The notes beneath the pieces are model-generated. The model did no database searches. It saw only the letters and a list, made by a program, of their open reading frames with translations, and was not told the DNA's origin. Of a stretch of 64,000 nucleotides of DNA, positions 2,195 to 64,000 are shown in pieces; within the stretch, counting starts at the first letter, position 1; the number at the start of each line of letters is the position of its first letter. The DNA is taken from positions 1 through 64,000 of the forward strand of contig CACCPA010000003.1 in assembly GCA_902547755.1 (NCBI GenBank), in the 5' to 3' direction. Made by a program: the position numbers and the translations under genes. This DNA comes from Halieaceae bacterium (GTDB taxonomy: Bacteria; Pseudomonadota; Gammaproteobacteria; Pseudomonadales; Halieaceae).

Positions 2195-3099
2195 GCAAGT
2201 CAGACACACAGACCGAAAAATTGATCGTGGGTGACGTGGCGGTCAAGCCCGATGGCGAGAAACTTCAGAAGGTACTCGCGCGCATGGGGCTTGGGTCGCG
2301 GAGAAAACTCGAGGAGAGCATTCAGGCCGGCGACGTTACGGTGAACGGTAAGACCGCAAAGCTGGGTGATCGGGTCGTCGCGGGCGACAAAATCAAGTTC
2401 AAAGGACGCCCCGTCGCTAATGATCAGCTCTTGGACAACCGAATTTTGCTTTATCACAAGCCGGTGGGAGAGGTCTGCTCGCGTAAGGACCCGGAGGGGC
2501 GAGCAACGGTCTTCGACGGTTTGCCTCGCTTAAAATCCGGGCGTTGGGTGTCTGTGGGGCGTCTCGATTACAACACCTCTGGGCTCTTGCTAATGACAAC
2601 CGATGGTGAGCTGGCCAATGCGCTGATGCACCCGTCGAATCGTGTCGAGCGAGAGTACCTTATTCGTGTCATGGGTCGCGTTGATGACGCGATGCTGGAT
2701 CGCTTGAAGTCGGGCGTTGAGTTGGATGACGGTCCGGCACGTTTTACCGATATTCAAGAGGGTGGTAGTGACAGTGAGGGCATCAACCGCTTCTTTTACG
2801 TCGTGTTATCGGAAGGACGTAATCGCGAGGTACGTCGCCTCTGGGAGTCGCAAGGGACAACTGTATCTCGGCTCAAGCGTGTTCGCTACGGCGATGTTTT
2901 TATTCCCTCGAAGCTCAAAAAAGGGCAGTGGATGGAGTTAAAGCAGCGCGATGCTGACGTGGTATACACCATGGCCCAAATGGAGCCTAAGCCCGTCTAC
3001 CAACCCTCAAAGAAGTTGGCTGACAAGCGTGAGCGTCAATCGAAGAAAAGTGGTAAGCACATCGCTAAGAGACATAACAAAGAGCGTAAATCGCACTAA
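2191..3099 (+). CDS. rluB: 23S rRNA pseudouridine synthase, RluB type
   Basis: RluB converts uridine 2605 (E. coli numbering) of 23S rRNA to pseudouridine. The 302-residue protein has an S4 RNA-binding domain at about residues 22-75 (EKLQKVLARMGLGSRR) and an RsuA-family catalytic domain with GRLDYNTSGLLL, in which Asp126 is the predicted nucleophile. The C-terminal 40 residues are rich in Lys and Arg and probably bind RNA. The start overlaps scpB by 4 bp. RluB is preferred to RluE or RluF from the scpAB context and the basic tail; confirming the target uridine would need an rRNA modification map. Confidence 0.9.
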   Translation: MSKSDTQTEKLIVGDVAVKPDGEKLQKVLARMGLGSRRKLEESIQAGDVTVNGKTAKLGDRVVAGDKIKFKGRPVANDQLLDNRILLYHKPVGEVCSRKDPEGRATVFDGLPRLKSGRWVSVGRLDYNTSGLLLMTTDGELANALMHPSNRVEREYLIRVMGRVDDAMLDRLKSGVELDDGPARFTDIQEGGSDSEGINRFFYVVLSEGRNREVRRLWESQGTTVSRLKRVRYGDVFIPSKLKKGQWMELKQRDADVVYTMAQMEPKPVYQPSKKLADKRERQSKKSGKHIAKRHNKERKSH

Positions 3100-3205
3100 G
3101 AATGTGCAATGGGCGGGTGCTGATGCGTGCTACTCGCAAATAGGTGCTATTGATCGTTAGCACACGCAGATCTGAATAAAACCGTACTCTTTACCTGAGG
3201 AGAGG

Positions 3206-3958
3206 CTACTGAGCACTCATCGCTTCCCCGTTTAGCTGCGCACTTGCATCACTCATGAGGTACACCCACTCATGGATAATATCTTCTGGACTAGGGTTGG
3301 TTGTCGGTGGCTCAGCGGGATAAGCAGAGCGCCGCATGGCAGTGTTGACGGCGCCAGGGTTAAGGCTGTTAACGCGGATGGTTGATGTGGCACCAAGCTC
3401 ATCAGCAAGGACTTGCATCAAGCCTTCCGTTGCAAACTTCGATACGGCGTAGCTTCCCCAGTAAGCTCGTCCGGTTCTACCGACACCTGAGCTGGTGAAA
3501 ACAATGGATGCTGAAGGCGCTTGATCGAGGAGAGGTAGCAGGGTCTGTGTGAGCATGAAGCCTGCGTTAACATTCACCTGCATCACATCGTGCCACGTGG
3601 CAGCTCGGGTCTGGGCAATGGGTTTTCGATCGCCGAGCAGACTGGCGTTATGCAGCAAACCATCCAATTTAGGTAACGCCTCGCTCAGAGAGCCCGCGAG
3701 CGCAACAAAGTCGTCGTGGGTCGCTTTAGCTAGATCCATGGGGAGTATTGCAGGCTCAGGCGCACCCAGGGCCACAATCTCGTCGTAAAGGGCTTCCAAT
3801 CGTTCCTCGTTGCGACTGAGGAGCAGCACTTCCGCGCCGTGGCCCGCGTAGGCAAGACTGGCGGCACGGCCGATACCCTCTGACGCACCGGTGACCAAAA
3901 TGGTTTTTCCCGATAACTCGGATTGCGAGGGAGACCATTCACTGGGAGCGGTAGGCAT
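3206..3958 (-). CDS. yciK: YciK-like short-chain dehydrogenase
   Basis: This is a 250-residue SDR oxidoreductase with the Rossmann dinucleotide motif TGASEGIG (residues 24-31), the NAS-type motif LLHNASLLG and the catalytic Y-x-x-x-K in SYAVSKF. The substrate is unknown. I place the start at ATG 3958 because it overlaps the mupP stop as TAATG and because family members begin close to this point; a longer frame reaches 4024. It is the last gene of ubiG-mupP-yciK on the minus strand, the order known from Pseudomonas. Confidence 0.85.
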   Translation of the reverse strand: MPTAPSEWSPSQSELSGKTILVTGASEGIGRAASLAYAGHGAEVLLLSRNEERLEALYDEIVALGAPEPAILPMDLAKATHDDFVALAGSLSEALPKLDGLLHNASLLGDRKPIAQTRAATWHDVMQVNVNAGFMLTQTLLPLLDQAPSASIVFTSSGVGRTGRAYWGSYAVSKFATEGLMQVLADELGATSTIRVNSLNPGAVNTAMRRSAYPAEPPTTNPSPEDIIHEWVYLMSDASAQLNGEAMSAQ

Positions 3959-4629
3959 TAAAGTTGATTCCTTATCCATTGGCAGAGCGCTTGTGGCGAA
4001 TCGACACAGAGGTCGGCTCCCCACTGCTCTGGATTATCGTGATCTTCGATGTAGCCGTATTTCACCGCGACGGTGAAGCACCCTGCAGCATTACCTGATT
4101 CGATATCCCGAATATGATCACCAACATAGACCATCGCCTCGGGCGACACATTCAGCTGGGATGCAGCGAGCAGCACCGGTTCTGGATGGGGCTTGGCATG
4201 GGTGACATCGCAGGGAGTAACCAGTACGCCTGCCGTCGGCTCGAACGGCATCACATTCATTAATGGCTCGGCAAAGCGACGAAATTTGTTTGTCACTACA
4301 CCCCATTTCTTACCCGCGCGATGAGCCGCTTTTAAAACCGCCACCAATCCATCGTAGGGTTGGGCAGTTGAGCCCAGAAGTTCCTCGTACCAATCGAGGT
4401 ATTGTTGGCGATACGGCTCCCATCGAGGGTCACCTTCCTCTATACCTGTCGCTTCTGTGACCAGACGCCCTGAACCGTGGGAGATTAATTTCCGTGCATC
4501 ATCGAAGGGCTTTTCGCCGCCGCCTAGCTCTACACAGAGTTTCTGATAGGCCGCGATGAGCTCGCTGGCTGTATCGACCAGTGTCCCATCTAGATCGAAA
4601 ACGAAGGCGTCGAAGACGCGCTGACTCAC
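3958..4629 (-). CDS. mupP: HAD phosphatase, probable N-acetylmuramic acid 6-phosphate phosphatase MupP
   Basis: A HAD-superfamily hydrolase of 223 residues with motif I DLDGTLVDT (nucleophile Asp12, acid/base Asp14), motif II in VVTNK and the C-terminal VGDHIRDIESG. It resembles phosphoglycolate phosphatases. The position between ubiG and yciK and the C-terminal WGADLCVD segment fit MupP of pseudomonads. MupP dephosphorylates MurNAc-6-phosphate in the cell-wall recycling route that feeds AmgK and MurU. The start is GTG at 4629, overlapping the ubiG stop by 3 bp. A phosphoglycolate phosphatase cannot be excluded from sequence alone. Confidence 0.8.
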   Translation of the reverse strand: MSQRVFDAFVFDLDGTLVDTASELIAAYQKLCVELGGGEKPFDDARKLISHGSGRLVTEATGIEEGDPRWEPYRQQYLDWYEELLGSTAQPYDGLVAVLKAAHRAGKKWGVVTNKFRRFAEPLMNVMPFEPTAGVLVTPCDVTHAKPHPEPVLLAASQLNVSPEAMVYVGDHIRDIESGNAAGCFTVAVKYGYIEDHDNPEQWGADLCVDSPQALCQWIRNQL

Positions 4630-5333
4630 GCTGGCTTACTCGCTCGAATCATGTAATTCACGGATACGTCACCCTCGACGAGTCGGTAATGTTTGGTGAT
4701 GGGGTTGTAGGTCAGCCCAATCATCGCCTCGACGGTTAGCCCAGCAGCGCGCGCCCACCGAGCAAGCTCCGATGGTTTGATGAGCTTGTCGTATTCATGG
4801 GTGCCTTTGGGAAGCAAATTGAGTACGTACTCCGCCCCCACAATGGCGAACAACCACGCCTTTGGGTTGCGATTGATGGTCGAAAAGTACAGATCGGCAC
4901 CGGGCTTAGACATGTCAGCGCAGGCCTGAATGACTTTTGACGGGTCAGGCACATGCTCGAGCATTTCAAGACAGGTCACCACGTCGTAGGTGGCAGTGCG
5001 TTCCTCGGCAATGGTTTCAGCCGTGGTCTGGCGGTAGTCAATGTCGAGCTTTGACTCGAGCAAATGGATTTTTGCGACAGAGAGTGGCGCCTCGCCCATA
5101 TCAATGCCGGTAACGGTTGCACCGCGATGTGCCATAGCCTCGCACAGTAATCCGCCACCACAGCCCACATCGATCAGCTTCTTACCCCGCACTTCACTGA
5201 ACTGATCGATCCAGCTGGCTCGTAGCGGGTTGATGTCGTGCAATGGTTTGAATTCGCTATTTTCATCCCACCATCGAGACGCCAGCGCCTCAAATTTTGC
5301 AATTTCGTCTGGGTCTACATTGCTGTAATTCAT
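4626..5333 (-). CDS. ubiG: Ubiquinone biosynthesis O-methyltransferase
   Basis: UbiG performs both SAM-dependent O-methylations in ubiquinone synthesis. The 235-residue protein has the family N-terminus (FEALASRWWDENSEFKPLHDINP), SAM-binding motif I DVGCGGG at residues 55-61 and the LEMLEHVPDP segment. The C-terminal part (TYNPITKHYRL) lies near the membrane-interacting region. It is the first gene of the ubiG-mupP-yciK operon. An aerobic quinone pathway agrees with the alternative oxidase and AcsF found elsewhere in the window. Confidence 0.95.
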   Translation of the reverse strand: MNYSNVDPDEIAKFEALASRWWDENSEFKPLHDINPLRASWIDQFSEVRGKKLIDVGCGGGLLCEAMAHRGATVTGIDMGEAPLSVAKIHLLESKLDIDYRQTTAETIAEERTATYDVVTCLEMLEHVPDPSKVIQACADMSKPGADLYFSTINRNPKAWLFAIVGAEYVLNLLPKGTHEYDKLIKPSELARWARAAGLTVEAMIGLTYNPITKHYRLVEGDVSVNYMIRASKPA

Positions 5334-5378
5334 GATTTAGTCATCTCAATGAGGCGGCTGCCTGCACATACGTCAGGA

Positions 5379-6689
5379 TTAGGCGCAGAGTTTAGCGCGC
5401 CAGTCGGCGGCTTTGTGCCTTAATGCATCGCTGTCTAGGCTTTGCAATTGTCTGTTTTTCACTGCGTTTTTGCCAGCGATCCAACTATGAGTGACTTCGT
5501 TTCCAGAAGCAGCGTAGACAATGTTGGATTCAATCTGGTGGTTGGGCGCCATGTGAACGTCACTCATATCGACGGCAATAAAGTCAGCGGATTTACCCAC
5601 CTCGAGACTACCTGTGACATGATCCAGCCCAAGGGCGCGCGCGCCGTCGAGCGTAGCCATTCGTAGAGCCTCACTGGCCGAGAGTGCTGTCGGGTCGCCG
5701 CTCTCTAATTTTGCCAGCAAGGCTGCTGCCTGCATCTCTGCGAGGCCATTTTGTCTATTGTTACTGGCTGCACCATCCGTGCCCAGCGCGATGTTGATAC
5801 CCGCATCTCGCAGTTTCGAGACAGGGCAGGCGCCCGACGCGAGTTTCATGTTGGAGCGCGGGCAGTGCACGACGTGTGCACCGTGGGCCGCCATGGTCTC
5901 GATATCCTGTGACCCGAGAGCTGTCATATGGACGCACTGTGTTCGCGGCCCCAATAAACCGATGCGCGCTAACAAATCGATGGGGCGTTCGCCTGTTGCC
6001 TCAACATGTGCCAGCACCTCGGCCGCTGTCTCGTGAAGATGGATTTGGATGGCAGCATCAAGCTCGTTGGCCAGCATGGCCGTTCGTGAGAGCAGCGACT
6101 CATCGACGGTGTAGGTCGAGTGAGGGCCAAAGCCAACGTCCACAAGATCGTCATTTCTGAAGTAATCCCGGAGCGCCAACCCCTTTTCGAAATACTCCTC
6201 GGGGTTTTTTGCCCAGGCGGTCTCAATATTCATGACTGGAAACACGAGCTGTGTTCGCATGCCGGCAGCGCGCAGGCTCTGGGCCGCGATATCAGGGAAG
6301 AAATACATATCACTGGTCGTTGTGATGCCGCTGAGTAACATTTCTGCTGCCGCAATGTCCGTGCCGTCGCGAACGAATTCGGGAGACACCCAGCGGGCTT
6401 CCAGTGGCCATATTTTATCGTTCAACCACGATGCCAGCGACAAGTCATCGGCATAGCCGCGCAGTAACGTCATGCCCGCATGGCCGTGCGCGTTCACAAG
6501 GCCTGGCATGATCACATGACCCGAAAGTTCGACATGATCTATATCCGTCAGAGCACGCGCCTGCGAATGCGGCATTAACGCGTCGATCAGTCCCTGCTTC
6601 ACAACGATGCTATGAGATTTCAGGACATTTTCGGGCCCCGAGACGGTGATGATTGCGTCTGCGTGAACCGCAAAATTAGCTGATGTCAT
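5379..6689 (-). CDS. mtaD: TRZ/ATZ-family amidohydrolase, probable methylthioadenosine/S-adenosylhomocysteine deaminase
   Basis: A cytosine-deaminase-type amidohydrolase of 436 residues. It has the metal site NAHGHAGM, the HLHETAAEV histidines, HCPRSNMKL and the metal Asp in LGTDGAASNN. The family deaminates MTA, SAH or adenosine to the inosine form. The start is taken at ATG 6689; a GTG nine codons upstream is possible. It faces away from gyrA, as its relative does in Pseudomonas, but the mtnA gene usually found between them there is absent. Other TRZ/ATZ substrates are possible. Confidence 0.82.
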   Translation of the reverse strand: MTSANFAVHADAIITVSGPENVLKSHSIVVKQGLIDALMPHSQARALTDIDHVELSGHVIMPGLVNAHGHAGMTLLRGYADDLSLASWLNDKIWPLEARWVSPEFVRDGTDIAAAEMLLSGITTTSDMYFFPDIAAQSLRAAGMRTQLVFPVMNIETAWAKNPEEYFEKGLALRDYFRNDDLVDVGFGPHSTYTVDESLLSRTAMLANELDAAIQIHLHETAAEVLAHVEATGERPIDLLARIGLLGPRTQCVHMTALGSQDIETMAAHGAHVVHCPRSNMKLASGACPVSKLRDAGINIALGTDGAASNNRQNGLAEMQAAALLAKLESGDPTALSASEALRMATLDGARALGLDHVTGSLEVGKSADFIAVDMSDVHMAPNHQIESNIVYAASGNEVTHSWIAGKNAVKNRQLQSLDSDALRHKAADWRAKLCA

Positions 6690-6815
6690 AAATCGTAAGT
6701 TTCCACTTTTCTGCACTGTTAAAAGTAGCCTTAACAGGCTGAATTTGATAGTATTTACAGCTTACAAACTGCAGGATTTTGGCGGCGCGCCCGTCGATAA
6801 AAAAAAGATCACCGG

Positions 6816-9431
6816 ATGTCAGATCAGCAGCAAGATTTAGCGCAAGAAGTGCTCCCCATAAATATCGAGGACGAGCTCAAGCAATCCTACATGGATTACG
6901 CGATGAGCGTTATTGTCGGACGCGCATTGCCCGATGTCCGAGATGGCTTGAAGCCCGTTCACCGTCGCGTCTTGTTCGCCATGAATGAACTGAATAACGA
7001 TTGGAACAAGGCGTATAAGAAGTCCGCTCGCGTCGTTGGTGACGTGATCGGTAAGTACCACCCGCACGGTGATTCTGCGGTTTACGACACCATCGTTCGT
7101 ATGGCGCAAACATTCTCCCTTCGTTATCCGCTTGTAGACGGCCAGGGAAATTTTGGTTCCATCGATGGCGACTCTGCTGCAGCGATGCGGTACACCGAGA
7201 TCAGAATGACCAAGCTGGCGCACTCGCTGCTGGCCGACCTTGAAAAAGAAACCGTTGATTTTGCGGAAAACTATGACGGCACTGAGCACATCCCTGTCGT
7301 CTTGCCAACGCGAGTTCCCAGCCTTCTGATCAACGGCTCTGCGGGTATTGCGGTTGGGATGGCGACTAACATCCCACCCCACAACATGCGCGAGGTCGTG
7401 GCTGGTTGTTTGGCCTTGCTCGACAACTCCGAGATCAGTATCGACGAGCTGATTCGCTATATTCCGGGACCCGATTTCCCAACAGGGGCCATCATTACGG
7501 GCCGCGCCGGCATTATTCAGGCGTATCGGACGGGTCGAGGGCGCATTTACGTCCGTGCTAAAGCAGAGGTGGTAACGGATGAATCTAAGGGCAAGGACAC
7601 GATTATCATCCACGAGATCCCTTACCAGCTGAACAAAGCGCGTTTGCTCGAGCGCATTGCCGAGCTGGTCAAAGAGAAGAAGATCGAGGGCATTACCGAA
7701 CTTCGCGATGAATCCGACAAAGACGGATTGCGGGTTGTTATCGAGTTGCGCCGAGGGGAAGTTGGCGACGTTGTACTGAATAACCTGTACGCACAGACGC
7801 AGTTGCAGTCCGTGGTTGGCATCAACATGGTGGCTTTGGTCGACGGGCAGCCCAAGGTTCTCAATATCAAGGAGATCATTGAGTCCTTCATTCGTCACCG
7901 ACGTGAGGTTGTTACACGCCGTACACTGTTCCTGCTCCGCAAGGCGCGCGAGCGAGGCCATGTGCTGGAAGGCTTGGCTGTTGCGCTTGCGAATATCGAT
8001 GAAATCATTGAGCTGATAAAAACATCGCCGACCGCAGCGGATGCGCGGGACCGATTGGTGTCTGCTGCCTGGCTGCCAGGCGATGTCACCGCCATGCTGG
8101 AGCGTGCGGGTGATTCGGCGTGTCGACCGGATGACCTTGAGGGTGATTACGGTCTGATCGATGGGAAATATCACCTATCACCCGCGCAGGCGCAGGCTAT
8201 TCTTGAGTTGCGACTCAATAGGCTCACAGGACTTGAGCACGAAAAACTACTTCAAGAGTACGCGGATAAGGTTGCCGAAATCGCGGATCTTATCGACATC
8301 CTGGGTGACCCCGATCGATTGAGAGCGGTCATTCGCGAGGAGCTCGAGGAGATAGTGGAAGACTTTGGTGATGATCGACTGACCGAGATCACCGACTCCG
8401 CGCACGATCTGACCGTTGAAGACTTGATTACCGAAGAAGATCGTGTCGTAACCATCTCGCATCAAGGGTACGCAAAAACACAGTCCCTGACCGACTATCA
8501 GGCGCAACGCCGTGGTGGTACTGGTCGAAGCGCGACTGCGGTGAAAGATGAGGACTTCGTCGAGCACTTGTTGATTGCCAGCACTCACGCGACGGTTCTG
8601 TGTTTCTCGAACCTTGGTAAGGTGTATTGGCTAAAAGTGTTCCATATCCCGCTGGCCAGTCGAAACTCGCGAGGTCGCCCTATGGTGAACTTGCTGCCGC
8701 TCGACGAAGAAGAGCGAATCACGTCTATCTTGCCCATCGATGGGTATGACGAGAATCAGTTCATCTTTATGGCGACGTCGAATGGCACCGTAAAGAAAAC
8801 GGCGGCCACACAGTTCTCCCGTCAGCGAAGTGTTGGCTTGCGAGCGATTGAGCTGGACGAAGATGACGTGCTGGTCGGCACAGCCATCACGGACGGTAAC
8901 AGCGATATCATGCTGTTCTCGACCGAAGGTAAGGCCACGCGTTTCAATGAAGGCCAGGTCAGGGCCATGGGTCGTACCGCGAGAGGTGTCCGGGGCATCA
9001 ACCTTGCCGCTGGTCACAAACTTATCTCGCTCATTGTGCCAAAAGAGGGTGGTCGTATTCTGACTGTCACAGAAAATGGCTACGGTAAGCGGACCGAGAA
9101 CGCGGAATTTCCCGCAAAGGGCCGCGGTGGTAAAGGTGTCATTGCCATGTCCACATCAGAACGCAATGGTTCGCTTGTGGGTGCGGTTCAAGTTTGGGAC
9201 GGCGACGAAATGATGCTGATCTCCAATCAGGGCACAGCCGTTCGAACACGTGTCGATGAAGTGAGTCTCCTAGGCCGAAACACGCAGGGTGTCAGAGTCA
9301 TACGAACCCGGGACGGTGAAGCGCTGGTGAGCGTGAGCCGAATCGCTGAGGACGATGACGCAGCAGAACCTGCTCAACCCGTCGTGACAGACGAAGACTC
9401 GAATAGCGGTAGCAACGAGACAGAAGAGTGA
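6816..9431 (+). CDS. gyrA: DNA gyrase subunit A
   Basis: GyrA cuts and rejoins DNA in the A2B2 gyrase that introduces negative supercoils. The 871-residue protein has the breakage-reunion domain with catalytic Tyr126 ([10 protein letters not shown]) and a C-terminal beta-pinwheel carrying the GyrA box QRRGGTG. The quinolone-resistance region reads [12 protein letters not shown]: Ser87 and Asp91 match E. coli Ser83 and Asp87, so the usual resistance substitutions are absent. The C-terminus ends in an acidic tail. The stop overlaps the serC GTG start (GTGA). Confidence 0.98.
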
Positions 9432-16650: not shown

Positions 16651-16947
16651 ATGACGCGAAGCGAACTCATTGAGCTAATGGCATCACAGCAAAATCAGCT
16701 GACGACGAAAGACGTCGAGTTGGCTGTAAAGCTGATGATAGATCATATGGCGGAGTCGCTGGCTTCAGGAGAGCGCATCGAGATTCGCGGCTTTGGTAGC
16801 TTCTCACTGCACTACCGAGAACCCCGCAAGGGTCGAAATCCCAAGACCGGTGATGCCGTTGAGCTGGAAGCCAAGCATGTCCCTCACTTTAAGCCAGGCA
16901 AAGAATTGAGGGAACGCGTTAATCGTTCGATCAAGGCGGTATTCTAA
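16651..16947 (+). CDS. ihfB: Integration host factor subunit beta
   Basis: IHF-beta pairs with IHF-alpha (encoded at 45995 in this window) to bend DNA sharply in replication, recombination and transcription. The 98-residue protein has the HU/IHF fold with [27 protein letters not shown], including the Pro at the tip of the DNA-intercalating arm. The start is ATG 16651, preceded by AAGGTGGGG; the frame extends further upstream but lacks homology there. The stop overlaps the lapA start (TAATG). Confidence 0.96.
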
Positions 16948-17240
16948 TGCTCCGCTGGCTCCGTGCCGCTTTGACTCTGACGCTATTGTGCCTCTCCGTC
17001 TTCCTAGGCGCCGTCTTTGCAACGCAGAATACTAAGTCCGTGCCGTTGACCCTGGGCCCATGGGCACTCGGTGAGCAGCCGGTGGCCGTTTGGCTCCTTT
17101 CGTTCCTAATTGTTGGTGTCTTGCTGGGCAGTCTTATGAGCTCCGCATTAGTGATGCGGCAGCGAGCGGCGAGCGCCTCGTTGAAGCGCCAGAACGCGCG
17201 ATTGAGTCAGCGGCTGAACAAGGATGCAAAAAGTGGCTGA
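16947..17240 (+). CDS. lapA: Lipopolysaccharide assembly protein A domain protein
   Basis: A small inner-membrane protein of 97 residues with two predicted transmembrane helices (about residues 5-26 and 43-66) and a basic, coiled-coil-like C-terminal tail (RQRAASASLKRQNARLSQRL). This is the LapA/YciS architecture. In E. coli LapA acts with LapB to control LPS synthesis through LpxC stability. The start overlaps the ihfB stop and the 3' end overlaps lapB by 17 bp. Confidence 0.85.
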   Translation: MLRWLRAALTLTLLCLSVFLGAVFATQNTKSVPLTLGPWALGEQPVAVWLLSFLIVGVLLGSLMSSALVMRQRAASASLKRQNARLSQRLNKDAKSG

Positions 17241-18408
17241 GCCTAATACGCTGCTACTGGTCTTATTGTTTTTGGCTGTTGCCGCTGGTTGGGTACTCGG
17301 TAGAGGTGCCGCAAGCCGTGATGTGCCAGAAGAGACGGCGCCTCCATCGCAGTATTATCTCGGACTGAATTTTCTTCTGGATGGCGAGCAGGAGTCAGCG
17401 CTGAAAGCATTCAGCGAGGCACTGGCGGTCAACGCGGAGACCTTTGAGACTCACATCACCTTCGGCAGTCTGCTGAGAAAGCGTGGTGAGGTGGACAACG
17501 CAATCAAAATTCACCAGTCGCTTCTGTCGAGAAGTCGTCTCCCTGACGTTCAGAAAAATCAAGCACATCTGGAGCTTGCGAAAGACTTCATAGCTGCGGG
17601 TCTTCTGGATCGTGCTGAGCAGTTACTGAAAGATTTACTTGAGTTATCTGAAGAGCACCAATTAGAAGCCAAAACCCTTCTCATCCAGGTATTTGAGGCG
17701 AGCCGTGATTGGGATCAGGCGCGTGAGCTAACGGAGTCTCAATTGGGTGAGGTTAGAGAGGATGATCCTCATCAAATTTCGGCCGCTATCAAGGCGCGTG
17801 CAAAGTTAAGTCACTACTGTTGTGAGGCTGCAGAAGATAAAGAGTCTGCAGATGACTTCAAGGCGGCACGTGAGCTTGCAGAGCGCGCCTTGGATTGGAC
17901 TGAAGAATCGGTCTGGCCCCACATAATCCTCGCGCGTTTGGACCAACAACAAGATCGGCCCGGACGTGCGTATGACCGTCTAGTAAGGGCGGCGAACATG
18001 TCACCCGAGCGGCTGCCAGAGTTCGCTGCAGAGCTTATTGCAATCAGTGAGGGTGTTAACTGTCGCGATGATCTAACCCCTCTCATCGCCACCTTATTGA
18101 CCCAGCGAGAAGACCCTCAGTTGCGCGTTATCTTGGCCGATGAACACAGGGCGCGAGGGGATGACGTAAAAGCTTTGGAGATCATTAAGCAAGGCTTGAA
18201 TAAAAAGCCGAGCTCGCGGCTTCTTATGCAGGCCCTCACGTTGCTAGGTGAAGAGGTGGCGACTCCGGAAATTATAGAAGGGGCCCAAAAGCTGGCATCA
18301 CGTCAGTCGGCATATCTCTGTGGTGTGTGCGGTTTTCATGGCCCAAGTTTCTACTGGCAATGTCCTAGCTGTAAGAGCTGGGATACACTCCATCGGCCGG
18401 TGCGCTGA
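17224..18408 (+). CDS. lapB: Lipopolysaccharide assembly protein B (TPR and rubredoxin-like)
   Basis: LapB (YciM) sits on the cytoplasmic face of the inner membrane and couples LpxC to FtsH proteolysis, coordinating LPS synthesis. The 394-residue protein has one N-terminal membrane helix (LLLVLLFLAVAAGWVLG), TPR repeats over about residues 40-350 (YYLGLNFLLDGEQESALKAF; RAEQLLKDLLEL) and a rubredoxin-type C-terminal knuckle CGVC...CPSC. The start at ATG 17224 lies inside lapA; GTG at 17233 has better spacing from AAGGA and is an alternative. Confidence 0.92.
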   Translation: MQKVAEPNTLLLVLLFLAVAAGWVLGRGAASRDVPEETAPPSQYYLGLNFLLDGEQESALKAFSEALAVNAETFETHITFGSLLRKRGEVDNAIKIHQSLLSRSRLPDVQKNQAHLELAKDFIAAGLLDRAEQLLKDLLELSEEHQLEAKTLLIQVFEASRDWDQARELTESQLGEVREDDPHQISAAIKARAKLSHYCCEAAEDKESADDFKAARELAERALDWTEESVWPHIILARLDQQQDRPGRAYDRLVRAANMSPERLPEFAAELIAISEGVNCRDDLTPLIATLLTQREDPQLRVILADEHRARGDDVKALEIIKQGLNKKPSSRLLMQALTLLGEEVATPEIIEGAQKLASRQSAYLCGVCGFHGPSFYWQCPSCKSWDTLHRPVR

Positions 18409-61478: not shown

Positions 61479-61958
61479 TTACGCCTGCGCTACGACCAGA
61501 ATTCCCGGATGGAGCGCGATAACACGAACGCGGTCGCCGCTTGCGAGTGATTTGTCGCCTTCCTCACGCGCCAGCTCAACGCGCCACGACACGCCAGAGT
61601 ATTGATGCGTGGACTGAGTCTCGCGATCTAAGATGCTCGATAGCGCAAACTCATAACCTACAAAGTCCGAACTCTGACCTGAGCGAGGAGGTTCAGCCGC
61701 CTGATATTGCATGAGCGGTTTCCATAGCAATACGCCCAAGATAAATGACAGCACGCCCATCACGGCGAACCCAGTTAACCAATCGTCCGGCACCATCCCT
61801 AGGTAAATGAGTAGGGCGGTAATGAGCGATCCGAGCCCGGCGAGGAAGAGTACGATAGTGCTCATACCGAGTACGACTAGCTCTATAACGAGCGCAAGTG
61901 CGCCTATTGCAAACCAGAAGCTCGCCGGGTTTTCACCGAAGTATTCAAGCAGTGCCAT
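61479..61958 (-). CDS. NfeD-family membrane protein
   Basis: A 159-residue short NfeD protein with three hydrophobic helices (WFAIGALALVIELVVLGMSTIVLFL; LGSLITALLIYLGM; VMGVLSFILGVLLW) and a C-terminal OB-fold of about 70 residues (YSGVSWRVELAREEGDKSLASGDRV). NfeD proteins accompany SPFH proteins and are thought to help in membrane-domain organisation. The gene overlaps the SPFH gene upstream by 14 bp, so the two are coupled. Confidence 0.9.
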   Translation of the reverse strand: MALLEYFGENPASFWFAIGALALVIELVVLGMSTIVLFLAGLGSLITALLIYLGMVPDDWLTGFAVMGVLSFILGVLLWKPLMQYQAAEPPRSGQSSDFVGYEFALSSILDRETQSTHQYSGVSWRVELAREEGDKSLASGDRVRVIALHPGILVVAQA

Positions 61959-62901
61959 TGGTCTTTCCTTGCACCTCGTTTAGTCGATTGACGATGGTCA
62001 TCGCCTCAGCCACCACATTGGAAGCATTCGTCTGCGTATCACTTAGCAGTACGACAGAGGAGTCGCGTGCAATTGCCTGCTTGGCTGTGATTGCCTGCTC
62101 TGCCAAGTCCAGTTGCACGGCCTTTTGACCATCTTCTGTGTTTGCCGCCGCACCGACTTTGTTCAGGGCCTCAGCTTTCGCTTCTGCGACCGCAATAATC
62201 GCGTTCGCTTCACCCTCAGCGTTCAAAATCTGCTCGGCTTTTTCAGCCTCAGCTGCGAGTACTCGGGCCTGCTTTTCTCCTTCGGCAACGTTGATTGACG
62301 ATTGACGTTCACCTTCGGACTCGAGGATGGCCGCGCGTTTTTCTCGCTCAGCCTTCATCTGCCGTTCCATGGCATCGAGTACGGTGCGTGGTGGTTCAAT
62401 ATCTTTGATTTCGTAACGGAGGACCATGACACCCCAGGGGCCTGCTGCCTCGTTAATTTGTGAGACGATATTGTTGTTCAGCGCCTCACGCTCTTCGAAA
62501 GTTTTATCGAGCTCGATTTTGCCGATCTCGCTTCGCATAGTGGTCTGCGCGAGCTGGGTAACGGCATAGACGTAGTCATCCACACCGTAAGATGCTTTGT
62601 AGGGATCGAGTACTTTTAAATACAGAACACCATCGACGATCAGTGAGATGTTGTCTCGCGTAATCGCGGCCTGTGATGGGACGTCAAACGCTTGTTCTTT
62701 AAGGGTTCTGTTATAAGCGACCCGATCAAAGAATGGATTTAGGAAATTAAGTCCGGCCTCAAGGGTGCGGGTGTACTTACCAAAACGTTCAACGACAAAG
62801 GCGCGGTTTTGTGGAACAAACTTGACCGCCTTGGTTAGAACGACAATCAGCACGATCGCAATCGCAACGGAACTTAACAAACCAAACGATAGAAACTGCA
62901 T
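61945..62901 (-). CDS. qmcA: SPFH/stomatin-like protein, QmcA type
   Basis: A 318-residue SPFH (band 7) protein. One N-terminal membrane helix (SSVAIAIVLIVVLTKAVKFVP) is followed by the SPFH domain (RAFVVERFGKYTRTLEAGLNF) and a C-terminal coiled-coil rich in Ala and Glu (EKRAAILESEGERQSSINVAEGE is typical). QmcA forms oligomers in membrane microdomains and interacts with FtsH quality control in E. coli. GAGGGGG precedes the ATG. It begins the qmcA-nfeD unit. Confidence 0.92.
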   Translation of the reverse strand: MQFLSFGLLSSVAIAIVLIVVLTKAVKFVPQNRAFVVERFGKYTRTLEAGLNFLNPFFDRVAYNRTLKEQAFDVPSQAAITRDNISLIVDGVLYLKVLDPYKASYGVDDYVYAVTQLAQTTMRSEIGKIELDKTFEEREALNNNIVSQINEAAGPWGVMVLRYEIKDIEPPRTVLDAMERQMKAEREKRAAILESEGERQSSINVAEGEKQARVLAAEAEKAEQILNAEGEANAIIAVAEAKAEALNKVGAAANTEDGQKAVQLDLAEQAITAKQAIARDSSVVLLSDTQTNASNVVAEAMTIVNRLNEVQGKTNGTA

Positions 62902-63006: not shown

Positions 63007-63447
63007 CTATTCCATAGACCGGAACATTAGCGCAAGACGCTTCCCGCGACTCAGATTCTCAAGGAAGTCCTTGGCATTATCCTCGCGCGATAAGAAGTCC
63101 GAGTACCCTTGCAATGTCTCAACGTCGGCGCCGTCGAGATTAAGGAAGCCCATCTGCCAGTCAGGAAACTCGCGCTCGTCAACTTCGCCTTCAAATAAGA
63201 CGTCGATAGCCGTATGTCGCTCGTCTTTTTCGATGCTGTCGAAGGTCTGCCGGACCGCGTCCTCTGCACCCTCAAGTACTTGGTAAAACGATCGATCCCG
63301 ATGGAGTAAAAGCCCGGTAATATCGCGCGATGTATTGATCCGCCTAGCCTCGGTGAGTAGCTGCACCATGTCAGCCGAGCGCAAATTTCCGGTCTCGGTG
63401 CTGACATAACCCAGATGAAAGATGCGATCACTGTTAGTTTTAGACAT
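63007..63447 (-). CDS. BLUF-domain blue-light sensor
   Basis: A 146-residue stand-alone BLUF protein that binds FAD and senses blue light. The photocycle residues are all present: Tyr14 (HLGYVST), Asn38 (RRINTSRDITG), Gln56 (FYQVLEG), Trp97 and Met99 (FPDWQMG). After the core of about 105 residues comes a 40-residue helical tail (DFLSREDNAKDFLENLSRG) that may contact an output partner. No GGDEF, EAL or DNA-binding domain is attached. It is divergent from acsF, 139 bp apart, suggesting light control of photosynthesis. Confidence 0.93.
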   Translation of the reverse strand: MSKTNSDRIFHLGYVSTETGNLRSADMVQLLTEARRINTSRDITGLLLHRDRSFYQVLEGAEDAVRQTFDSIEKDERHTAIDVLFEGEVDEREFPDWQMGFLNLDGADVETLQGYSDFLSREDNAKDFLENLSRGKRLALMFRSME

Positions 63448-63460
63448 GCGTATGGGTCTC

Positions 63461-63570
63461 TTGACAGCGGCTATGGTCCATTAACTTGATTGAACCGCCA
63501 AGGTAAAATAAAATTGACAGCTAAAATATCCAAATAGTTGGACCTTGACTTATTTTTTTATTACTCAAGG
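63461..63570. repeat. Direct and inverted repeats between the BLUF gene and acsF
   Basis: TTGACAGC occurs at 63461-63468 and again at 63514-63521 (53 bp apart), and a related TTGACTTA at 63545-63552. CCTTGA (63543-63548) pairs with TCAAGG (63565-63570). These are candidate -35 boxes or regulator sites in the divergent region. A complete promoter and a PpsR-type TGT-N12-ACA site are not seen. Confidence 0.4.
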
Positions 63571-63586
63571 TCTATACGGGGGAAAT

Positions 63587-64000
63587 ATGGCAGAAGATTC
63601 AACTGCAGTTGGTATGAATAACAGCACTAAACAAGCGCTCGAAAGCCGCGCTTTGGCACCGCGGTTTTACACGACCGATTGCGGAGAGATTGGACGCTAC
63701 GACATTGATCCGGTTCGTGAGGAATGGGACGCCATGATGGCGGCTTTTGAGTTGGATACGAATCGGGAGCACTTCAAACAGAATTATGAATTTGATCCCG
63801 AGACACTGGAGGCAGATCCTGAATTAAAAGCTGAGTTTCTCGATCTGCTGGTCAGTTCAATTACGGCCGAGTACTCAGGTTGTGTCTTGTATCAGGAAAT
63901 CGAGAGCAAAGTAGGGGATCCAGAGATTGCAAAGCTCTTCCGCTATATGGCTCGCGACGAGTCGCGACACGCAGGCTTCATAAATCGCGCACTGAAAAAA
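63587..64000 (+). CDS. acsF: Aerobic Mg-protoporphyrin IX monomethyl ester cyclase AcsF, 3' end beyond the window
   Basis: AcsF is the di-iron, O2-dependent cyclase that makes the fifth ring of (bacterio)chlorophyll (protochlorophyllide from Mg-protoporphyrin monomethyl ester). Only the first 138 residues are present and the frame runs off the end. It shows PRFYTTDCGEIGRYDIDPVREEWDAMM-like family sequence, SITAEYSGCVLYQEI and the metal-binding RYMARDESRHAGF; Glu95, Glu125 and His128 are likely ligands. GGGGGAAAT precedes ATG 63587. Puh, bch or hemA genes may follow outside the window. Confidence 0.93.
   Translation, partial: MAEDSTAVGMNNSTKQALESRALAPRFYTTDCGEIGRYDIDPVREEWDAMMAAFELDTNREHFKQNYEFDPETLEADPELKAEFLDLLVSSITAEYSGCVLYQEIESKVGDPEIAKLFRYMARDESRHAGFINRALKK

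Follow-up and report, generated by a model that had tools for sequence, protein, structure and literature searches.

The window analysed here is the whole stretch of 64,000 nucleotides that forms the first 64 kb of a 193-kb contig (G000:C3:1-64000), from a Halieaceae genome with a completeness score of 72%. At its far end lies an intact BLUF gene divergent from acsF, as had been observed in a preliminary description made from the letters alone. The 139-bp gap that it described as common to the two genes is confirmed. The features of the locus are as follows.

63007..63447, minus strand: BLUF gene, an open reading frame of 146 amino acids with a single BLUF domain.
BLUF protein, by residue: core 10-100, conserved C-terminal tail about 106-145.
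63448..63586: divergent intergenic region common to BLUF and acsF, 139 bp between start codons.
63486..63514, plus strand: putative sigma-70 promoter of acsF, TTGATT-N17-TAAAAT.
63502..63519: first half of a predicted PpsR-type tandem operator, GGTAAAATAAAATTGACA, matrix rank 9.
63527..63544: second, degenerate half-site of the predicted operator, TATCCAAATAGTTGGACC, 25 bp after the first.
63587..64000 in the window, plus strand: 5' part of acsF (aerobic Mg-protoporphyrin monomethyl ester cyclase), which ends at C3:64651.

The acsF gene opens with an ATG at 63587, and the window stops 414 bases into it. Its product matches TIGR02029 (AcsF) at 485 bits, against a cut-off of 192.5, and also NF010172. 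The pair had been placed at the edge of a photosynthesis region, a claim that would fail if no further photosynthesis gene followed; beyond position 64000 the contig does continue as a photosynthesis gene cluster. The first cluster genes identified there by models are bchP, bchG, ppsR, bchF, bchN, bchB and bchL, and others are bchM, puhA, puhB, pufC, pufM, pufL, bchZ, bchY and bchX. Note that ppsR (C3:68484-69860, minus strand; TIGR02040, 417.9 bits) is only about 5 kb from the BLUF gene. From gene order, we take the cluster presumably also to contain bchH, puhC, puhE, lhaA, idi, bchC, bchO, bchD, bchI, crt genes and a PucC-like gene. A hemN relative reached 270 bits, below the cut-off of 325. 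We rejected the reading of bchX as a broken gene, because TIGR02016 matches 92145-92984 within an open frame. Downstream of BLUF, a Band 7/SPFH protein gene (61945-62901) was also matched beside BLUF in close relatives of the window (L071-L076, L078-L081), and not in the loci of other clades.

With acsF as its divergent neighbour at the edge of the cluster, the gene belongs to the cluster BLUF genes of the NOR5/OM60 clade. A BLUF gene is usually found upstream of NOR5/OM60 clusters, with acsF (spelt ascF) nearby (PMC3176799). The genes of Congregibacter litoralis (KT71_19323) and HTCC2080 occupy the same place, and nothing essential differs in the window. C. litoralis KT71 has two BLUF genes, one of them near ppsR, and no appA-like gene was found in this strain; a single-domain BLUF protein was proposed to modulate PpsR by an unstated route (PMC2654016). 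In C. litoralis, blue light alone changed pigment significantly, lowering it (PMC2654016). It also lowers pigment in L. syltensis and P. rubra (PMC3666943, which repeats the BLUF-PpsR idea). Both the acsF-BLUF arrangement and the core PpsR hypothesis are therefore already known for this clade. The find is an ordinary one, and its added value is the operator evidence. One strain without pufLMC is marked BLUF-positive (PMC3679898, Table 3); having a BLUF gene therefore does not in itself imply phototrophy.

The predicted protein is a full-length member of the BLUF domain family. In a Pfam profile search, PF04940 matched residues 10-100 over profile positions 2-92 of 92 (100.3 bits, cut-off 25). 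The core residues that had been read from the translation (Tyr14, Asn38, Gln56, Trp97 and Met99) are all present, and we take the roles of the Tyr/Asn/Gln set and the Trp/Met pair in photoactivity over from AppA. Asn38, Gln56, Trp97 and Met99 are kept in 55 of 55 aligned sequences of the lineage, and Tyr14 in 54, with one gap. This alignment holds 55 of the 62 extracted proteins; the seven omitted were two contig-end fragments, one over-long frame, two BLUF proteins of other type and two duplicates. At least 90% conservation was found in 37 of 97 columns of the core (residues 9-105) and in 13 of 40 columns of the tail (106-145), including 8 of 15 in residues 129-143 (55 relatives). The tail thus appears roughly as constrained as the core. 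The suggestion that it is the contact surface fits this conservation, which is not proof of contact. C-terminal helices are common in short BLUF proteins.

The domain profile search found only BLUF in the 146-residue protein and no haem or cobalamin domain, in keeping with the earlier description of a short protein without such a C-terminal domain. The protein is thus not an antirepressor of the AppA type, in which BLUF is fused to a SCHIC or other haem domain. BlrB, like the window protein, has a single BLUF domain. The solved structures that the lineage resembles in sequence are light-activated cyclases, AppA, PixD-type proteins and BlrP1; the lineage profile matches AppA chains 2bun, 2iyg and 4hh1 and the PixD-type chains 2hfn and 1x0p. 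AppA of Rhodobacter sphaeroides (BLUF plus SCHIC, a PpsR antirepressor) resembles the present case in tying a BLUF sensor to PpsR and photosynthesis genes. It differs in having a haem-binding SCHIC part (PMC4844311), whereas the window protein ends 46 residues after the BLUF match. PixD and PapB each have a single BLUF domain like the window protein, but their reported roles are in phototaxis (PixD) and biofilm (PapB) and not at photosynthesis operators (PMC4844311). LdaP of Dinoroseobacter shibae is a flavin blue-light receptor reported to relieve PpsR repression in the dark (PMC10890935). It differs in being a LOV and not a BLUF protein, and its gene (Dshi_1135) is far from the cluster (Dshi_3501-3547); the role of LdaP has been tested, whereas that of the window's BLUF protein is a predicted one.

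We surveyed 140 genomes of the family. Some BLUF match occurs in 69 of them, 57 with the lineage of the window's gene and 12 with other BLUF genes only. The window's protein is 45-98% identical over most of its length to 55 other BLUF proteins of the lineage, to which the G077 fragment is added, and only 24-38% identical to the other BLUF matches of these genomes; it therefore belongs to an acsF-linked lineage. Note that lineage was assigned at 45-100% identity (or 89% for the G077 fragment), and that this sorting was done after the list was seen. A BLUF-EAL protein in G027 (E 3.8e-25, 38% identity) was grouped with the 12; its E-value falls within the lineage, and it is set apart by its build and identity. 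We found acsF in 58 of the 140 genomes, above the curated cut-off in 57 and below it in G073. The two genes occur together in 56 genomes, and every one of these pairs is divergent and adjacent, with less than 400 bp between match ends. These counts include G073 and G106 as having both genes, the adjacent acsF piece being a contig-end fragment below the model cut-off. Conversely, acsF occurs in 56 of the 57 genomes with the BLUF lineage, and the remaining one (G089) is cut by a contig end. The four discordant genomes comprise three with cut contigs (G089, G072 and G083) and G027 with its BLUF-EAL protein. In G072, acsF is accompanied at the contig end by the first 19 BLUF residues (79% identity), and the acsF piece of G083 is a fragment located at the end of its contig. 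On its own, co-occurrence could also arise if the whole cluster is lost and transferred as one unit.

PpsR is usual alongside the pair, with exceptions in these drafts. Full or partial PpsR matches of at least 132 bits were found in 62 genomes, six of which are without this BLUF lineage: G072 and G083, and four (G069, G074, G082 and G088) that are also without acsF. Those four are drafts, 62 to 95% complete, with ppsR under the cut-off in G088; either contigs are missing or their clusters are built without the acsF-BLUF pair. In G067, the pair is present and no PpsR match exceeded the cut-off. BLUF and ppsR lie no more than 20 kb apart in 29 of 58 genomes.

Among named relatives, divergent acsF-BLUF pairs occur in HTCC2080 (L104), L. 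syltensis (L111), P. rubra (L116) and C. halotolerans (L126). They also occur in MAGs titled Chromatiales (L108), Chromatiaceae (L112) and Gammaproteobacteria (L115, L122 and L124). The named-genome scan gave 57 loci, and C. litoralis is not among them. The Chromatiaceae MAG has a second PpsR (392.8 bits) between bchP and acsF. No cluster gene accompanies BLUF in the 8 kb of a Comamonadaceae locus (L127, 42% match).

The gap between the two genes contains a predicted tandem operator. Its first half-site, GGTAAAATAAAATTGACA, has two mismatches to the published PpsR consensus, TGTcaN8tgACA. The strict TGT-N12-ACA pattern is absent from the window gap and many others; because it missed many gaps, we used a matrix trained on seven other cluster sites, which we chose among hits with at most two mismatches at cluster gene edges. 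With this matrix, the site at 63502 ranks 9 among the 121,983 positions of C3:1-122000. The eight positions that outrank it are all within the cluster and include the seven training sites. Of these eight, six lie outside drawn open reading frames, one over the drawn 3' end of crtF and one over the drawn 5' end of bchI. The second half-site at 63527 is poor on its own (rank 457 over the same span), and most relatives have a better match at the equivalent place. As a tandem pair, 63502/63527 ranks 8th among the tandem pairs of C3:1-122000; its score was not reached by any of 100 shuffled versions of the window gap.

The signal recurs in relatives. All 57 homologous gaps carry a tandem PpsR-type operator by the matrix, and in each, none of 100 dinucleotide shuffles reached the tandem score; these 57 are not independent cases, as the window and close relatives are among them. 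For single sites, no more than 5 of 100 shuffles reached the score in 56 of the 57 gaps (7 in L011). Spacers giving periods of 24-27 were permitted for real and shuffled sequences alike. The gaps are 139-305 bp long by the start codons that our script chose, which in five cases (L042, L047, L048, L062 and L063) was a late BLUF start that lengthens the gap. The half-sites are 6-8 bp apart here; spacings of 7-8 bp for KT71 (PMC2654016) and 8-9 bp for Rubrivivax have been reported. With a tandem TGT-N12-ACA-type operator near a promoter, the locus has the marks of a PpsR regulon member, the window's own sites being degenerate but positionally conserved. We did not find an operator between acsF and BLUF in the literature searched; Figure S5 of PMC2654016, on the PpsR sites of KT71, may list it.

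The putative acsF promoter overlaps this operator, its -10 hexamer (63509-63514) falling within the first half-site. We located the first box in 55 of 57 gaps (it was missed in L038 and L047). At fixed distances, 51 of these 55 have a -35-like hexamer with at least 3/6 matches, and 48 have a -10-like hexamer inside the box with at least 4/6. The best promoter in the gap faces acsF, the best on the BLUF strand scoring 8/12; the operator may govern acsF alone or BLUF as well. The direction of the best promoter would suit a reading in which the operator serves acsF alone, and the BLUF protein signals elsewhere, for example to an EAL-type or other partner, and is kept in place by linkage. Known short BLUF proteins do act on biofilm (PapB) or phototaxis (PixD) (PMC4844311), and G027 combines a BLUF-EAL protein (38% match) with the lack of acsF. 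Nevertheless, the near-complete co-occurrence of acsF with the BLUF lineage argues against a gene kept by linkage only, and we consider this reading unlikely.

Two further loci bear on whether the operator follows BLUF. In a MAG (L121), a tandem pair scoring 32.7 lies upstream of a BLUF gene that does not adjoin acsF, which also speaks against an operator for acsF only, although its target in L121 could be the divergent haem oxygenase gene. G089, whose contig is cut, has a tandem operator in the 300 bases remaining upstream of BLUF. By comparison, no site above 5 bits was found upstream of four other BLUF genes: the second BLUF of the window's own genome (L067), the second BLUF of L115 (where 400 bases upstream of the match were scanned), Comamonadaceae L127 and the BLUF-EAL gene of G027. 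That second BLUF protein of L115 (MAG MO_167.B39; 16868-17422, 50% match) is encoded about 7 kb from the acsF-linked one.

The L121 locus has no acsF match within the 17 kb covered. Its row at 2323-7262 comprises PpsR (348.6 bits), a phytochrome (PHY, GAF and PAS domains, with no kinase domain match), a haem oxygenase and BLUF, and is followed by crtF and crtE matches. The row lies inside a photosynthesis cluster and is possibly an island of red and blue light control. That this BLUF gene belongs to a cluster with no acsF over the 17 kb covered is at odds with a role at the enzyme level, in which the BLUF protein would act on AcsF or the cyclase step, not on transcription. Such a role would explain why the two genes stay together. 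It would also suit L115, where BLUF is flanked by acsF and by bchE, the gene for the anaerobic cyclase (TIGR02026, 811 bits), and one clade in which a displaced unit consists of the pair plus a small membrane-protein gene. The shared operator accounts for the linkage without protein contact, and we know of no precedent for a BLUF protein acting on the cyclase enzyme, which likewise counts against this role. We regard it as very improbable.

In 22 of the 57 loci, the pair (or BLUF alone on cut contigs) is displaced among other genes. We scored a pair as having left the cluster if no cluster gene but acsF was within the locus (at most 10 kb each side) and ppsR was on another contig; four loci (L084, L086, L088 and L093) were assigned by the genes beside BLUF only. 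Within the reach of each contig, the acsF side carries an enoyl-CoA hydratase gene with purL beyond, and the BLUF side carries genes for a small membrane protein and an acyl-CoA dehydrogenase. Where found in these genomes, ppsR is on another contig. The displaced pair keeps the tandem operator. On a tree of 52 concatenated BLUF-AcsF rows, 20 of them displaced, one change of state suffices (support 98), and the displacement is therefore a single event, subsequently inherited. It counts as one event only. The tree is a quick one with SH-aLRT support only and covers 51 of the 57 loci plus the window; L086, L088, L099, L119, L121 and L127 were left out for a missing or short acsF match. The small membrane-protein gene that adjoins BLUF in the displaced pair (L068:7130-7741) matches UPF0093 weakly, at 23 bits, below the cut-off, and is also found beside BLUF, at 35-47% identity, in HTCC2080, L. 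syltensis and others.

We tentatively raise the possibility that acsF, BLUF and the operator make up a light switch that regulates itself and is relocated as a unit. PpsR would then use a single operator to repress both the oxygen-dependent cyclase and the light-dependent antirepressor of PpsR itself. If so, light input and the aerobic step of pigment synthesis would be adjusted jointly, also where the unit is no longer in the photosynthesis cluster.

Taken together, we conclude that the gene is the photosynthesis-cluster BLUF of the NOR5/OM60 (Halieaceae) clade and that it encodes a predicted blue-light sensor, which probably belongs to the PpsR regulon and in turn feeds into PpsR. This reading rests on features read from DNA: an intact BLUF core, a conserved tail, co-occurrence and divergence with acsF, a tandem PpsR-type operator and a likely acsF -10 hexamer inside it. 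It gains support from the adjoining cluster with ppsR, the 56 of 56 divergent pairs, the operator kept in the displaced pair, L121 and G089. The preliminary description had proposed that the short BLUF protein may act on photosynthesis genes through a partner other than PpsR. The tie of the lineage to acsF and the cluster supports the link to photosynthesis genes; a different partner is less well supported than PpsR, which is the simplest candidate because ppsR is 5 kb away, the operator is of PpsR type, and PpsR was proposed before (PMC2654016).

In the mechanism that we infer, PpsR would bind the operator in the gap and repress acsF and perhaps BLUF, and the BLUF protein would contact PpsR. 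In its dark state, BLUF would weaken this repression, and blue light would end the effect; alternatively, lit BLUF would strengthen repression by PpsR. Either route would lead to pigment repression by blue light as reported for relatives. Since this operator also precedes the BLUF gene, the circuit would regulate itself. Photo-oxidative stress or redox acting on PpsR could instead produce the blue-light effect, leaving BLUF a minor role: in L. syltensis and P. rubra, pigment is repressed by green light as well, and the authors name oxidative stress as an alternative (PMC3666943). Retention of the BLUF core residues across 55 relatives weighs against a minor role, and we hold this explanation to be improbable.

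The PF02310 matches in G000, G058 and G060 are unlike AerR/PpaA by frame length and, in G000 and G058, by the neighbours of the shortest match, and we therefore set aside a free antirepressor of this B12 type as the light input; for G000, this exclusion applies to a genome only 72% complete. AerR would presumably match PF02310. In G000 and G058 the matches are a 231-residue protein, located beside methyltransferase-like genes (L128 and L129), and a frame of about 722-729 residues; we take the former to be a corrinoid protein, and the latter presumably fits methylmalonyl-CoA mutase by length. The frames in G060, judged by length alone, are 236, 724 and 1249 residues.

NOR5/OM60 bacteria are widespread marine phototrophs, and the proposal on how they sense blue light in the absence of AppA dates from 2009 and is still open (PMC2654016). 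In two near-complete genomes of a single contig each (G058 and G060), the cluster BLUF is the sole BLUF match. Such genomes, the conserved operator in fixed register with a promoter, and the displaced pair make the proposal directly testable, with PpsR at the acsF-BLUF gap as the place to look. The window's own genome encodes a second BLUF protein (L067:4787-5236; 149 residues, 84 bits) next to a gene resembling enoyl-CoA hydratase. In G027, where no acsF match exceeds the cut-off, the BLUF-EAL gene and a short BLUF-like open reading frame adjoin on opposite strands (L064:4486-6452).
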